In this document: piece by piece, positions 40,847 to 62,851 of the stretch
Numbering within the stretch: the stretch's first letter is position 1
Layout: each line of letters begins with the position of its first letter
Virus record (IMG/VR): IMGVR_UViG_3300047558_000137
Location: 62,001 to 126,000 of that record
Length of the DNA: 64,000 nucleotides
Source: a virus
Direction: 5' to 3' (one strand)
Made by a program: the position numbers and the translations under genes
The notes under the pieces: generated by a model
The model's input: only the letters and a program-made list of their open reading frames with translations
Database searches by the model: none
What the model was told of the DNA's origin: nothing

Positions 40847-41512
40847 TCATTTTTTCTTTGCGCGACCAGATTTCATGTTAGCCATCCAGTGTGCCAATTG
40901 GCCTCTTCGGCCACCTTGTTTGGCTATTTTGCGTAGACTTGATATGCTGCCTTTTGTTGGAACATTGTAACGCTTGCTGTCACCTTTATCTTCAGGATGG
41001 CGGCCATCGTGGAAGTTTTCTTTAAGATGTTCTTCGTCACGAGCCAATACAGCCTGCCCAATTCGCTCACATAACTGATTTAGTTTGGCATTATCGGTTT
41101 CGACTAGTTTGAACTTGTGTTGCCCATTATCTTGACTAGGATCCATATATCCACAGTAGACATAGTCAATCCCTAAATCTTCTAGTAGATCTGTGCAACT
41201 TTCATTGTAACGTAATTCCATACGTTGGTCACTACAAGGACTTAGCGTTGTAACTATAATGGATCCAGCGGGCAAGTCACCGTATTCTTTATTATAAGCA
41301 TCAATAGCTGTGCGTTCAGCATGGCACCAAAGTTCTGGATTGTCACTAACTAATGTGCCCAATCTTAGAACTCGTTGACCGTTAGGATCAACTACTGCGG
41401 CACCAACCCAACTGTGTTTTTCGTTGTCGTTGTCAACAATCATTTCGCAAAGGTCAACTAATACTTGATCTAAATCATTTTCTGCTGATTGAGTAAATTC
41501 GCTTAGTCTCAT
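40847..41512 (-). CDS. Deaminase-fold protein, putatively capsid-targeted
   Basis: A 221 aa protein with a cytidine-deaminase-type zinc site. LWCHAERTAIDAY supplies His and the catalytic Glu, and TTLSPCSDQRMELRYNESC the two cysteines, spaced unusually far apart (13 residues), a feature I associate with toxin-like deaminases. The N-terminus MRLSEFTQSAEND resembles the capsid-targeting peptides of its neighbours. The C-terminus ends in a Gly/Arg/Lys-rich tail (GRRGQLAHWMANMKSGRAKKK, one residue beyond the middle part). It may act on host nucleic acid after injection, or on free nucleotides. It overlaps the GH19 gene by 4 bases. Confidence 0.65.
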   Translation of the reverse strand: MRLSEFTQSAENDLDQVLVDLCEMIVDNDNEKHSWVGAAVVDPNGQRVLRLGTLVSDNPELWCHAERTAIDAYNKEYGDLPAGSIIVTTLSPCSDQRMELRYNESCTDLLEDLGIDYVYCGYMDPSQDNGQHKFKLVETDNAKLNQLCERIGQAVLARDEEHLKENFHDGRHPEDKGDSKRYNVPTKGSISSLRKIAKQGGRRGQLAHWMANMKSGRAKKK

Positions 41513-42144
41513 AGTATGTTCTTATAGTCTAGAAAATTGGCGTGACGATCTTGCAGTCCGCGCAAGGCAGGATTAATAAACTTAGTTACCAATGCAGTAT
41601 CGGCAAAGTTTTTAACGTTTGGTTTTACACGGGTGTTCCAGTACCATACTGCAATCTTTGCAGCCACATCGGGTCTGGCAGCTAGTTCTGGTTGTTGCTC
41701 TAATGGCAAACCTAACGCACGTCCGGCCATTTGATAATTAGCACGACCTGTAATTTGTATATAACCGCGACCATGATAACGTGCGCCATCACCGGGATGT
41801 GTGTTACCTAATATCCGAGCTTTGTCTGGAGAGTGCCGTGGATCGTATCTACGTGTGAAATACTGTGCGCCGCCAATTTCTTTCATACGACTAAAGTCGG
41901 CCGACTCGTGTTTAGTTTGTGCTAGAAATTGTGCTAACTCTACCCCACGTAGCCCATACTTCATTGCAGTCTTTTGTAATAGTATTTCTTTATCGGGATT
42001 ATTACTTAGAACATTGTATGAAGTTGGTGCCTTCATTCCCAAACCAGCTTGTGCAGCACCTGTTGCAGCCATGGCACCGGCACCTGCTAATCCACGCAGG
42101 AAACCTCTACGGTCCATTTCTGTAACAAATTCTGTTGCTCTCAT
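41509..42144 (-). CDS. GH19 chitinase/lysozyme-like protein with capsid peptide and Tat-like signal
   Basis: A 211 aa protein with a GH19 glycosidase domain from about residue 45: AQFLAQTKHESADFSRMKEI carries the catalytic Glu, and ARYHGRGYIQITGRANYQ follows. The N-terminus MRATEFVTE is a capsid-targeting-like peptide. It is immediately followed by DRRGFLRGLAGAGAMAATG and AQA, which looks like a twin-arginine signal peptide (RRGFLRG). Cleavage after VTE would expose the Tat signal. A peptidoglycan hydrolase carried in the virion and then exported is the natural reading, but it is inference. It overlaps both neighbours by 4 bases. Confidence 0.78.
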   Translation of the reverse strand: MRATEFVTEMDRRGFLRGLAGAGAMAATGAAQAGLGMKAPTSYNVLSNNPDKEILLQKTAMKYGLRGVELAQFLAQTKHESADFSRMKEIGGAQYFTRRYDPRHSPDKARILGNTHPGDGARYHGRGYIQITGRANYQMAGRALGLPLEQQPELAARPDVAAKIAVWYWNTRVKPNVKNFADTALVTKFINPALRGLQDRHANFLDYKNIL

Positions 42145-57026: not shown

Positions 57027-57281
57027 TTATTTTACTCCTTCGAATATTCTTTTTTGTATTTCGTACCATTCATTCCATTTATCAATTTTAACTGCACATT
57101 CATAGTATGTAGCATAGTTAATATTAACAGTGGAACTAACGTCACTTAACTTTGCACCTTCGGCTAGTTTTTGTAACTGTGGGCAAGTCTGTGCGTTTTT
57201 AGGTGCTTCAGGAAACTTTGCTGTTACTGGAACAACAGTTGAACATCCAGATAACAATAATGCCGCTAATAGATATCTCAT
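57027..57281 (-). CDS. Outer-membrane spanin lipoprotein (Rz1-like)
   Basis: An 84 aa lipoprotein. MRYLLAALLLSGCS gives the signal and lipobox (Cys13), then VVPVTAKFPEAPKN is the Pro-rich stretch of o-spanins, followed by a helical domain. It would anchor in the outer membrane and link to the inner-membrane spanin to fuse membranes at lysis. It overlaps the Rz-like gene by 4 bases. Confidence 0.75.
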   Translation of the reverse strand: MRYLLAALLLSGCSTVVPVTAKFPEAPKNAQTCPQLQKLAEGAKLSDVSSTVNINYATYYECAVKIDKWNEWYEIQKRIFEGVK

Positions 57282-57742
57282 TTTGGTTGCTCCGCCGACA
57301 TGTTATGTGCATCAATGAATGCTTTAGGGATAACACATTGATTGTTGTATTTTGCAACTTCGCGATCGATATATTGCTTAACAATAACTTCGCGGCCCTT
57401 TATTACTTTGACCTTCTCTGCTGACTTCTTATCTAATGCTAGATTAGCAGCCTTAGATTCCTCTTCGGCCTTGGCAACTTTGGCTTCCATTTCTGCAACA
57501 CGCTCACGCCATTGCATCTCTGTAGCATACCCACCTTCGAAGTATATACCGGCAGCTAAAAGAGCTGCACTAGCAACCTGTGCTAGTGTTACATATTTCG
57601 ATAATGGCGGGAACCAACGTAGTAGTCGATTGACAACAAAGAAGAATAGTACACAACCAACAATCCCGGCCAATAGGATAGTGTGTACAATAAATTGTAT
57701 AAAACTATCTGGTAGGAAATGTAGCAACCACATGTTATGCAC
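57278..57742 (-). CDS. Inner-membrane spanin (Rz-like)
   Basis: A 154 aa protein. Two hydrophobic N-terminal spans (about 12-38 and 50-66) are followed by a long charged coiled coil (75-130, MEAKVAKAEEESKAANLALD). The C-terminus CVIPKAFIDAHNMSAEQPK is the type of end found in Rz proteins. With the Rz1-like lipoprotein it forms the spanin pair; the endolysin gene lies directly upstream. Confidence 0.75.
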   Translation of the reverse strand: MHNMWLLHFLPDSFIQFIVHTILLAGIVGCVLFFFVVNRLLRWFPPLSKYVTLAQVASAALLAAGIYFEGGYATEMQWRERVAEMEAKVAKAEEESKAANLALDKKSAEKVKVIKGREVIVKQYIDREVAKYNNQCVIPKAFIDAHNMSAEQPK

Positions 57743-58368: not shown

Positions 58369-58408
58369 AAACTCCTAGTGACTAAGATATTTAGCCAAAA
58401 AGGAGTTT
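58369..58408 (-). promoter_or_regulatory. Late promoter inside an RBS-hiding hairpin upstream of the endolysin
   Basis: In the minus-strand transcript AAACUCCU (58408-58401) pairs perfectly with the Shine-Dalgarno AGGAGUUU (58376-58369). The late motif CTAAATAT (58394-58387) lies in the loop. Read-through RNA would hide the RBS; RNA starting at the late promoter would lack the pairing arm and be free. This is the arrangement known for T4 gene e (lysozyme). Confidence 0.7.
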
Positions 58409-58416
58409 AAAATGGG

Positions 58417-58977
58417 TTAGCGAATAATACCGGCCATATTGCGTAGGGCCTCTGTGTACTCGTTTTTAGGTGCTTTTGTTGTTACTTTTACACCAGCAGT
58501 AGCTTTTAGCTTGTCAATTACTTCTTGCCCGTACAATTGATTGTACTTTTCTGGGCTAGTAGGAATCATCGATTCTAATGCTTCTAGACTAAGAGTTTGT
58601 TCATCATGACTTTTAGTGTAACGCACACGCCAATCCTCTGCTTTTTGTTCAGTTAGATTAAACACATCTTCCATCATGGTCATAATGTTAGCGGGTGCAT
58701 CTTCTGTACGATCTATTTCGACAAATACAATATAGCTGCCATCGTCCATTTCGCCTGAACTTACGTCAGCGTCAAGTACCCAGTCATAGCCTTTTTCAAT
58801 AAATGCAACTAGGTCTTCTGCTGGTTCCTTGCTGTCAACTTTAAAAGTTACAACAACAACATCAGCATCGTCACCTAACTTACTTTTGAATTCGTCTATG
58901 TGTAGTTCAGGGTGAATTAGGCGCTTTAAATCGCCCATTTCAAGACCCTCAAAGATTGGATTGTTGGTCTTGGTCAT
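58417..58977 (-). CDS. Hypothetical phage protein
   Basis: 186 aa from the ATG at 58977; the reading frame extends upstream, but that part lies inside the next gene. It has an acidic alpha/beta domain with GDLKRLIHPELHIDEFKSKLG, DADVVVVTFKV and a calcium-like DADVSSGEMDDGSY. I recall unnamed relatives in T4-like phages. It overlaps the upstream gene by 29 bases. Confidence 0.65.
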   Translation of the reverse strand: MTKTNNPIFEGLEMGDLKRLIHPELHIDEFKSKLGDDADVVVVTFKVDSKEPAEDLVAFIEKGYDWVLDADVSSGEMDDGSYIVFVEIDRTEDAPANIMTMMEDVFNLTEQKAEDWRVRYTKSHDEQTLSLEALESMIPTSPEKYNQLYGQEVIDKLKATAGVKVTTKAPKNEYTEALRNMAGIIR

Positions 58978-59508: not shown

Positions 59509-60768
59509 TTAAATAGCGTGTGTTGCTATTTTCTTTAATTTTCTGTTCTGTATAGCCATAATTTCCATGTTAGAACGTTCTAAGTATCCTCTATTTACAA
59601 ATTTAGGAGATACAGGATTATACGTGCTGTCTCCTATGTAATATAGTTGACTTAAATTTGGTTTAAACCCCACGGGGCTGTTTAATTCATATTGGAAATA
59701 CTTTGGATCGATTTTATCTACTAGAAATTTTAGCCCTGCACGCCATGCATGATCGTACTCGGTCCCTGCTAAATTAGTATGAAACCAGTGATCCATTTCA
59801 TTGTAGAAACTAGTTGTTGGCTTTGATGTTTGCCATGTTTCTAAATCATAATCTGGGTATATTATTGATTTAGCGATATATTCGTATGCTGTGCGCTGGT
59901 TTGTATTACCATTGGGTGTCTGCACCAAATGCCTGACATGTCCGTTCTGGGACATATCAAACCACATCTTAATCATGTGTGCTTGCTTACACACTATTTC
60001 TGGCAAATCTGGAGTCCAATAAAATAACTCTGTGGTTATATTGGTATTATCTCCAACTACAGGATTGGGATGATTTGCCTGTAGGTCACTATAATAGACA
60101 TACCATTTGTTTTCTATAATACAGACTTTGGGTTTATCAATACCATATAACGCACAGATCTTCTTTCCAGAATCAGCTAGGGTTTGATGTGCAGTAGTTC
60201 CAAAGTTAGTGTGCTTAATTCCATGACCGGGTTGAAACCAGTCCCGAGTAGTGTAGACCCACGACTCATCTCTCATATATGAATCGTTTAGAAGATTTTC
60301 ACTGTAGTCTTGAACTGTAACTACTGTATCGGGAAAGTTTGTCTTGATCCAGTGCAGTAGTGGTTCAGCGGCAAATTTCTTCTCACTTAGTGTATTTTCT
60401 GCGTTAGTGTTCCATGGATCGTCTGTTACATCCTTGTCTACTTGTGCGGGATATCTAAATACAACTTCGTCTAAGTGAATTCCGTTTAGTAAGAAAGCAA
60501 AAATAGCAGTAGTACTGTCTCCACCGCCACTAGCTTCAACTCTAATCCAATCATACTGATCTCGTAACTGCTGTGCCCTGATTCGATACAACTCTCGTAT
60601 ACTGACTTCGGGTTCTTGTGTCCAATTAAATTTAGCCAAGTCGATTGTATTAAAGTGCCACCCAGGTGTTACGCCTAATTCTGTGGCACGTATGTAAGCC
60701 TGAGGCTTTGAATAGAAAACCTCAGTGCCTACTGTGTAATAACCTAATTTAGGATTACGTTCAATCAT
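59509..60768 (-). CDS. PP-loop ATP pyrophosphatase-like protein (copy B)
   Basis: A 419 aa protein with a PP-loop (ASGGGDS, residues 79-85) in the segment RIRAQQLRDQYDWIRVEASG, followed by a helix and an LNGIHLDEVVFRYP strand. This is the ATP-adenylating motif of the QueC/TilS/asparagine-synthetase superfamily. It is much longer than QueC (about 230 aa) and I see no QueC zinc cysteines. It is paralogous to the protein at 62851. It probably activates a carboxylate or carbonyl with ATP, substrate unknown. It is coupled to the Bug-like gene by ATGA. Confidence 0.75.
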   Translation of the reverse strand: MIERNPKLGYYTVGTEVFYSKPQAYIRATELGVTPGWHFNTIDLAKFNWTQEPEVSIRELYRIRAQQLRDQYDWIRVEASGGGDSTTAIFAFLLNGIHLDEVVFRYPAQVDKDVTDDPWNTNAENTLSEKKFAAEPLLHWIKTNFPDTVVTVQDYSENLLNDSYMRDESWVYTTRDWFQPGHGIKHTNFGTTAHQTLADSGKKICALYGIDKPKVCIIENKWYVYYSDLQANHPNPVVGDNTNITTELFYWTPDLPEIVCKQAHMIKMWFDMSQNGHVRHLVQTPNGNTNQRTAYEYIAKSIIYPDYDLETWQTSKPTTSFYNEMDHWFHTNLAGTEYDHAWRAGLKFLVDKIDPKYFQYELNSPVGFKPNLSQLYYIGDSTYNPVSPKFVNRGYLERSNMEIMAIQNRKLKKIATHAI

Positions 60769-61685
60769 TTTGATTGATCGATTTTAACACCAACTGTTAA
60801 GTTAGTCCAATATTTAGATTGCTCATCCCACCATTTTACTAAATCCTTTTCTGGGATTTGGTAAGGTTGGCAATAGTCAAGTGCATAAGAATCTCTAACA
60901 GATTTTTTACCTTCTACTTTAAGTAGAATATCTCTGATTTCTTTTGCTTTGTCTTCTGGGAATGTTTTTGGTACCATTAGGTTATAAGGAGTATTCATCT
61001 TGCCCATTGCTGTAGGAAAGCCTTGGCTTACTAATGTTGCGTACTTTCCTACAGGTTTAGTGCCGGTGATCCCTAGAATATTCAGCTTAGGCTTACCTGG
61101 TTCAGCAACAACATATTTTTCTGCATCACCAATAAATCCCACTGCTAGATCAACTTGGCCGCCGAGAGCAGCAATAAATGCATCTATTGTAGATTTAAAC
61201 GGAATAATGGTTGCATTTGGGTATGCTCGAACTACCTCAATGGCCATCAGATGACTAACTACACCAAGTCCACTAGTCGCAATGGTAATAGGTTGATCCT
61301 TTGGAACTTCCTTCCATGATGAGTACTTAGAACTTGCTACAGAAAATGGAACACTACATTGTGTGATTAATGTACGGAAATCGTTTGGATCGTAGCTTTC
61401 TTTAGGATAGAAAGCAGGACGCACCCAGAATACACCCGACGTCATAAAAATACTGCCGGGCGTATTTTTAACATAGTTACCTGCAATAGCATTGCCGGCC
61501 CCGGGCTTTGCATCAAAGATAAAGTTATACTTGTCTTGAATTTTATTTGCTTCTTCAGCCAGGTTACGACTGTAGTTTGCACTGTTATCTGCGGCGCTGA
61601 AGCCATAGATGATTTGAATAGTTTCTTTTGCAGATGCAGATAATGCTACTGCCGCAAAAACCAACGCGGTTAAAAGTTTTTTCAT
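60765..61685 (-). CDS. Bug/TctC family periplasmic solute-binding protein
   Basis: About 306 aa from the ATG at 61685, with the SD TTGGAG. It has a signal peptide, MKKLLTALVFAAVALSASA, cut before KETI. The mature protein has the Bug/TctC pattern: IIYGFSAADNSANY at the ligand-binding loop, a FDAKPGAGNAIAGNYV motif (the PGAG typical of the family), ATSGLGVVSHLMAIE and a late DYCQPYQIP. The family binds carboxylates for tripartite tricarboxylate transporters in the periplasm. It would feed a host TctAB-type transporter. A sigma70 promoter lies just upstream. Confidence 0.82.
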   Translation of the reverse strand: MKKLLTALVFAAVALSASAKETIQIIYGFSAADNSANYSRNLAEEANKIQDKYNFIFDAKPGAGNAIAGNYVKNTPGSIFMTSGVFWVRPAFYPKESYDPNDFRTLITQCSVPFSVASSKYSSWKEVPKDQPITIATSGLGVVSHLMAIEVVRAYPNATIIPFKSTIDAFIAALGGQVDLAVGFIGDAEKYVVAEPGKPKLNILGITGTKPVGKYATLVSQGFPTAMGKMNTPYNLMVPKTFPEDKAKEIRDILLKVEGKKSVRDSYALDYCQPYQIPEKDLVKWWDEQSKYWTNLTVGVKIDQSK

Positions 61686-61705: not shown

Positions 61706-61734
61706 ATTATACAAAATTATTACTAATTTGTCTA
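61706..61734 (-). promoter_or_regulatory. Sigma70-type promoter of the Bug-like gene
   Basis: On the minus strand TAGACA (61734-61729) and TATAAT (61711-61706) are exactly 17 bases apart. The SD and ATG of the Bug-like gene follow within 25 bases. One base differs from the -35 consensus, and the -10 is perfect. It indicates transcription by the host polymerase, independent of the late genes. Confidence 0.75.
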
Positions 61735-61867: not shown

Positions 61868-62851
61868 TTATAATTTGTATTGTAACAAAGTTTCTTTAGC
61901 AAATAATTCTTCTACAGTAAGTAAATGTTTAGACAAGCCTTGTGTGTGGTGGTAACGGCAAAATGTTTCTAACATAGTTAAATTATTTTTAATTCCATAA
62001 CTCCACCAATTGTTGCCAAACTCTCGACGAGTTTCTTCTATGTGTGCAGGCAACCACGGTAACATTATTTTTAATGCATCGGTTTCCTGTAAATCTGTAT
62101 AAGCATACTCTTGAGCCTGTACAAACGCATTAAGTAAATTTTGAGCAAGCCATCTATGTTGTTCATATATCGATCTACGTATAACAATAACATGCATAGC
62201 AGGAAATATATTAGTTAGCCGATAGTAATCTTTTTCTACGTTTGCAAAATCAGGAAACAATCTTATAACTTTCCCGTCACCTTTTAAAAAACTAGTTGGC
62301 GTTCTGGCAGCATATAGTGCATCAATTTCGCCAGTATACAACATATTAGACAATGTTTTATTTGAGTCAATTGGGCTCACAAAATCTAAATCAAGTGGTA
62401 CACGTTCTATTCTGCCGGGCTGCTCTTGCCCGCCGGTGTAATGTTTTTGCGTAGTTTGATCTACACCATAGTATTCTTGCAAAATGCCACGGATCCATAC
62501 AGGTGCAGTCATTTGATATTCAGGGCTCGCTACACGTTTACCATTTAAATCACTCGGTGTTTTAATTCCTGACTCAGCATTAACGTAGATACAACTATGT
62601 CTAAAGAATCTAGATGGAAACACTGGAATAGCAACAAATGGTCTTTCTTCAGTATGTAAAGACATGCAGTAACTAGATAAAGACATTTCTGCTACGTCAA
62701 AATCTTGATATCGTGCCATTCTGAAGAATGTTTCATCTACAGGTAAATTGCTGTAATACAATTCTGCGCCCTCAACAGACACACACCCGTCAATTAACGC
62801 GGCAATGCGATCATAGTTCCAACAGGCAAAACTTAAATTTAATTTTTTCAT
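61868..62851 (-). CDS. 4,5-dihydroxyphthalate decarboxylase family protein
   Basis: A 327 aa protein that matches, from end to end, the pattern I know for 4,5-dihydroxyphthalate decarboxylases: DVAEMSLSSYCMS near 53-65, the FPSRFFRHSCIYVNAES box, GKRVASPEYQMTAPVWIRG and PGRIERVPLDL. The family also holds periplasmic substrate-binding proteins, but here there is no signal peptide, so a cytoplasmic enzyme is likely. The reaction would release CO2 from dihydroxyphthalate to give protocatechuate. The ATG overlaps the PP-loop gene's stop (TAATG). Confidence 0.75.
   Translation of the reverse strand: MKKLNLSFACWNYDRIAALIDGCVSVEGAELYYSNLPVDETFFRMARYQDFDVAEMSLSSYCMSLHTEERPFVAIPVFPSRFFRHSCIYVNAESGIKTPSDLNGKRVASPEYQMTAPVWIRGILQEYYGVDQTTQKHYTGGQEQPGRIERVPLDLDFVSPIDSNKTLSNMLYTGEIDALYAARTPTSFLKGDGKVIRLFPDFANVEKDYYRLTNIFPAMHVIVIRRSIYEQHRWLAQNLLNAFVQAQEYAYTDLQETDALKIMLPWLPAHIEETRREFGNNWWSYGIKNNLTMLETFCRYHHTQGLSKHLLTVEELFAKETLLQYKL

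Follow-up and report, generated by a model that had tools for sequence, protein, structure and literature searches.

Here, we analysed a window of 64,000 nucleotides, which spans bases 62001-126000 of a virus record 374,314 bases long. Together with further stretches of the same record, the window forms a genome sample of 264 kb out of 374 kb. Judged by its genes, the source is a T4-like jumbo phage, since its DNA polymerase matched the phage family of T4-type DNA polymerases, its capsid protein shared 70% identity with the capsid protein of Vibrio phage 2.275.O and 67% with that of Pseudomonas phage PA5oct, and its genome encodes a gp55-like late sigma factor (E 6.3e-81; also E 4.5e-24). The T4 late co-activator gp45 was not found in a search that had no positive control, and an Rfam search of the window returned no match.

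The features of the locus are listed in Table 1. The endolysin matched the Pfam family PF00182 (Glyco_hydro_19) at 29.6 bits, exceeding the cut-off of 25.5, and the phrog_181 endolysin family with E 6.5e-75. The Pfam scan yielded Glyco_hydro_19 only and no homology to the T4 e lysozyme, in agreement with the initial annotation, which had described a GH19 enzyme unrelated to T4 lysozyme. The two nearest genes upstream encode homologues of virion structural proteins and their order is conserved; the adjacent one is separated from the endolysin by a gap of 52 nt, which holds a hairpin whose 5' arm lies 8 nt after the upstream stop codon. Candidate Rz and Rz1 spanins come downstream of the endolysin. 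A strong sigma-70-like promoter was located 3.3 kb upstream on the same strand, and 11 of 17 sites of this type in the genome sample lay within 80 nt before a start.

Several other genes in the window deserve mention. Two periplasmic-receptor-like genes (60765-61682 and 61868-62851, both on the minus strand) are present upstream of the lysis genes, one of which encodes a TctC tripartite tricarboxylate receptor (PF03401, exceeding the cut-off), and the other is a weak match to phosphonate-binding or NMT1-like proteins. A further GH19 protein (41509-42144, minus strand), for which a TAT signal sequence is predicted, is ~31% identical to the endolysin across the matched part.

Table 1. Features of the endolysin locus, with positions counted from the first base of the window
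Feature	Position	Strand	Remarks
GH19 endolysin, 209 aa	57735-58364	-	Pfam PF00182 and phrog_181
Gene upstream of endolysin, homologous to virion structural proteins of jumbo phages	58417-58974	-	phrog_13138
Candidate inner-membrane (Rz-like) spanin	57278-57742	-	phrog_312, E 5.6e-4; conserved beside endolysin
Candidate outer-membrane lipoprotein (Rz1-like) spanin	57027-57281	-	Conserved order
Sigma-70-like promoter, TAGACA-17-TATAAT	61706-61734	-	11/12; possible source of early read-through toward endolysin
5' arm (anti-Shine-Dalgarno)	58401-58408	-	RNA AAACUCCU; only in read-through RNA
3' arm	58369-58376	-	RNA AGGAGUUU; holds endolysin Shine-Dalgarno
Inner stem-loop	58379-58397	-	58397-58391 (UGGCUAA) with 58385-58379 (UUAGUCA); covaries in relatives
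CTAAATA, T4-type late promoter box	58388-58394	-	In loop and inner stem
Predicted late transcription start	58382 +/- 2 nt	-	Deduced from spacing known for T4 late promoters

On the minus strand, AAACTCCT (58408-58401) is complementary to AGGAGTTT (58376-58369) at all eight positions, the two arms being separated by a loop of 24 nt. The Shine-Dalgarno sequence of the endolysin, AGGAG at 58376-58372, lies within the 3' arm, 7 nt before the ATG. The initial annotation had proposed both this 8 bp pairing over the Shine-Dalgarno sequence and a late promoter in its loop, and the pairing and the position of the promoter motif were confirmed. To these we add the inner stem, which uses the first bases of the promoter and adds stability to the hairpin. 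The predicted folding energy of the read-through leader was -15.4 kcal/mol, compared with -1.8 kcal/mol for a leader starting just past the promoter and -14.9 kcal/mol for the predicted fold of the T4 gene e leader, and the Shine-Dalgarno sequence was predicted to be unpaired at 0.01 in read-through RNA versus 0.56 in late-start RNA. Relative to dinucleotide shuffles of the leader, z was -4.4 here and -4.3 for T4 gene e. When the upstream arm was shuffled with the promoter and downstream sequence kept fixed, none of 300 versions folded as well as the native one.

The position of CTAAATA relative to genes is consistent with a late promoter. In a blind count of heptamers located at -50 to -10 of starts in the 264 kb, TAAATAT, ATAAATA and CTAAATA took ranks 1, 2 and 3, and CTAAATA was observed 16 times in this interval versus 1.15 expected. 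TAAATA words in this sample typically lie ~20 nt before the start, and CTAAATA precedes both the gp23-like capsid gene and the gp18-like sheath gene. The total number of CTAAATA in the window was at expectation (16 vs 15.7); the signal is the position before starts, not abundance. The exact T4 late box TATAAATA was found 0 times in the window versus 6.9 expected, and it is the TAAATA boxes preceded by C or A that are positioned before genes in this phage.

GH19 endolysin loci were taken from viral contigs for comparison, and the layout was common to nine sequences, counting the window, all from a single endolysin clade. Three arm types were distinguished, in which the base after GGAG is T, A or C and its upstream partner is A, T or G, respectively. 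Over the 13 pairs of the two stems, 93% were paired, with nine compensatory double changes distributed over both stems; none of 500 shuffles reached this covariation score, and slid versions of the arm alignment were 31-52% paired. The covariation of the arms in relatives, which had been set beforehand as a check on the pairing, was thus observed, and the outcome named in advance as refuting, a pairing not conserved in relatives, did not occur. This count was made on arms trimmed by hand with guidance from the folds, because MAFFT misaligned the 5' arms, and an alignment-free arm-swap test was therefore added, in which each upstream arm was joined to the promoter and leader of every other sequence. 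Mean folds were -16.9 kcal/mol for native combinations, -15.2 kcal/mol for arms of the same type and -10.5 kcal/mol for arms of a different type, and only 2 of 40,320 arm permutations matched the native mean, namely the native arrangement itself and the exchange of two sequences with identical cores. A pattern ignoring the 5' arm (TAAATA, variable gap, GGAGNTTTTCAATG) retrieved the clade and 34 other genes; clade folds ranged from -14.8 to -20.6 and just one of the 34 fell in this range (p = 4e-6), although the compared sequences are related and such p-values describe separation, not counts of independent events. That the arms change sequence yet stay complementary fits RNA pairing and not a fixed protein site.

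In the endolysin tree, all nine carriers of the layout fell into one group of 14. Among the other five members, L166 has a variant geometry and L005, L018, L045 and L172 are without the layout, the upstream gene of L172 being ~800 nt further off. Many relatives at a greater distance have extra sequence inserted between the endolysin and the gene upstream, or have the endolysin after the spanins, and are without the TAAATA box. As judged from these comparisons, the layout is conserved within one clade of GH19 endolysin. Across 131 endolysin leaders, the Shine-Dalgarno sequence was predicted to be unpaired at 0.33 when a TAAATA box was present versus 0.57 when it was not (p = 6e-5). Hairpins burying the Shine-Dalgarno sequence at or around a TAAATA box were also identified for related GH19 endolysins of the Sinorhizobium phages phiM12, phiM7 and phiN3 and the Vibrio phages Va1, pv27 and phiKT1024. 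These cultured-phage versions are looser, with a 5' arm that touches or overlaps the promoter box, so that truncation would be less clean.

A lytic phage pays a high price for endolysin made too early, a risk faced by large phages whose operons are long and co-directional. With the predicted hairpin, the position and enrichment of the promoter motif, the sigma factor gene and the compensatory conservation at hand, it is very probable that an RNA lock ties synthesis of the GH19 endolysin to the gene's own late promoter, like the T4 gene e lock. We infer the start site, the early read-through RNA and the translational effect as follows. RNA entering from upstream genes would carry the 5' arm and fold at about -15 kcal/mol into a hairpin of two parts, burying AGGAG and blocking the ribosome start at the endolysin; early RNA of this kind could come from the upstream sigma-70-like promoter at a distance of 3.3 kb. 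Late in infection, RNA polymerase with the gp55-like sigma factor would start at CTAAATA inside the loop, and the resulting RNA, beginning at about 58382 and free of the 5' arm, would have a short, near-unstructured leader and could be translated. On the other hand, four of the 14 clade members are without the layout, the search for gp45 gave no match, as is also the case in jumbo phage CBB, and both neighbouring genes upstream encode homologues of virion proteins, which means that RNA from upstream may also be late. The earlier statement that only late transcripts can be translated therefore has to be weakened to only transcripts from the lysin's own promoter. The lock may also silence late read-through, leaving the lysin dose to this promoter.

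The main purpose of the lock might even be to shield the endolysin from late RNA running in from the structural genes upstream, in place of separating early from late expression. The identity and conserved order of the adjacent upstream genes favor this purpose, whereas the strong sigma-70-like promoter on the same strand makes early read-through possible, and every T4 precedent concerns a late gene carried on an early or middle transcript (PMC2988022). We regard such a purpose as possible, with a chance clearly below even. It is very improbable, by comparison, that the inverted repeat acts as an intrinsic terminator for the gene upstream and overlaps the Shine-Dalgarno sequence incidentally. 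The repeat does begin shortly after the upstream stop codon and ends in a U run; however, the loop between the arms is long, the U run lies mostly inside the stem with just UUC after it, the site is absent from the list produced by the terminator scan, and the position of the promoter in the loop is conserved. The site lacks a G+C-rich stem with a short loop and an unpaired U tract behind it, and the intrinsic terminator was rejected as the main explanation.

The arms could also be half-sites in DNA at which a bound protein would block the late promoter, given that the promoter lies between them and that T4 I-TevI represses its own late promoter via DNA binding (PMC2988022). However, the covarying arms keep their complementarity while varying in sequence, and relatives differ in how far the 3' arm lies from the promoter; for these reasons a DNA operator was rejected as the main explanation, and we consider it extremely improbable. 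As for chance complementarity to the Shine-Dalgarno sequence, viral contigs were scanned for a pattern made of the anti-Shine-Dalgarno core, CTAAATA, AGGAG and ATG. This retrieved 31 stretches, compared with 28 when the left arm was scrambled and 10 when the promoter was. CTAAATA flanked by five-base arms is therefore no more frequent than the control, and information comes only from longer pairing seen within gene families. The 8-bp stem and the inner stem with their compensatory changes were nevertheless unreached by shuffles or arm swaps, and for the endolysin clade chance is refuted by the covariation and arm-swap tests, which leaves it a next to negligible probability.

The RNA lock agrees with what is known for T4 gene e, in which long transcripts form an inhibitory structure and lysozyme synthesis is ~100-fold lower (PMC3014915); this translational control is the subject of McPheeters et al. 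1986, cited in PMC2988022 and reviewed in PMC3014915. As known for T4 and predicted here, the Shine-Dalgarno sequence is hidden in long transcripts, a late promoter in the hairpin region removes the 5' arm, the stabilities are similar (see above) and the product is an endolysin. Unlike in T4, the enzyme is a GH19 protein and not the e lysozyme, there is one late box (CTAAATA) and not two (TATAAATA), the inner stem is built from the promoter's own bases, and the neighbours are virion-protein homologues upstream and spanins downstream. Among the phages listed in a review of T4-type leaders, many have no gene e, and some have the gene without an apparent structure (PMC3014915). The leaders of T4 soc, gene 49, I-TevI and segB and of Aeh1 mobE belong to the same mechanism class, with late genes on early or middle transcripts (PMC3014915, PMC2988022), but these genes have other functions, and several of the leaders were experimentally tested whereas the endolysin lock is predicted from sequence. 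A search of open-licence papers found none on such a lock before a GH19 endolysin. Control of the T4 gene e type, as put forward in the initial annotation, is supported by structure, promoter placement and conservation, all of which fit. The layout is conserved within one clade; with respect to T4 gene e, the GH19 lock is a known control mechanism on a non-homologous enzyme, that is, reuse and not shared descent of the lysis gene.

Jumbo phage CBB resembles the source phage in having a gp55-like sigma factor and ATAAATA boxes, located before structural genes, and in that gp45 was not found, according to the sections of PMC5259590 considered here, which contain no description of hairpins at CBB late promoters. 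In the fold that we computed for the CBB tail-sheath leader, a stem around ATAAATA buries GGAGG. CBB encodes a different, unrelated lysozyme, which has a transmembrane segment at its N terminus; before the lysozyme gene (L319 5604, plus strand) AAGGAGG is buried in a stem of -16.2 kcal/mol, with no TAAATA box in the loop.

Similar layouts were observed for other genes. Among 38 TAAATA-preceded genes in the genome sample, five had p<0.01 for pairing of the upstream arm (0.4 expected): a PhoH-like gene, genes for 260-aa and 199-aa proteins of unknown function, the tail sheath gene and the endolysin gene. The leader of the PhoH-like gene (L157 2691-3437, plus strand; 128691-129440 in its own genome) forms a hairpin of about -36 kcal/mol that buries AGGAGG, with TTAAATA within its 5' part. 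Tail-sheath leaders of relatives had p<0.05 in 16 of 48 cases (2.4 expected), these sequences being related. The sheath Shine-Dalgarno sequence pairs with an arm upstream of the TAAATA box in the source phage, CBB and a third of relatives (L163 7408-10764, minus strand; L319 13798, plus strand; L332, L352, L362 and others). For a small secreted-looking protein (L094 7273-7314, L100 280-321, L099 1820-1861), a perfect stem of 14 bp, AAAACTCCTTATAC/GTATAAGGAGTTTT, holds CTAAATA in its loop region. The layout was also seen before two homing-endonuclease-like ORFs (L105 3111-3144, minus strand, and L109 851-894, plus strand; by eye HNH-like and GIY-YIG-like), as is known for T4 I-TevI, segB and Aeh1 mobE (PMC2988022). 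Given that the viral contigs showed no enrichment, extension to other genes is tentative. That the lock is a recurrent module in T4-like jumbo phages, having arisen or persisted before numerous unrelated genes (among them those for endolysin and tail sheath), has in our view somewhat less than an even chance.

The presence of a lock like that of T4 gene e before a non-homologous endolysin, its compensatory upkeep and the looser cultured versions suggest that it has been selected for the lysis function and not merely inherited with one gene. The lock is kept by compensatory mutation in uncultured jumbo phages and is looser in cultured Sinorhizobium and Vibrio phages. If it is indeed a recurrent module, late timing would be set at translation as well as transcription over a set of genes. 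The finding extends the mechanism to another enzyme family and identifies cultured phages in which the lock can be tested.
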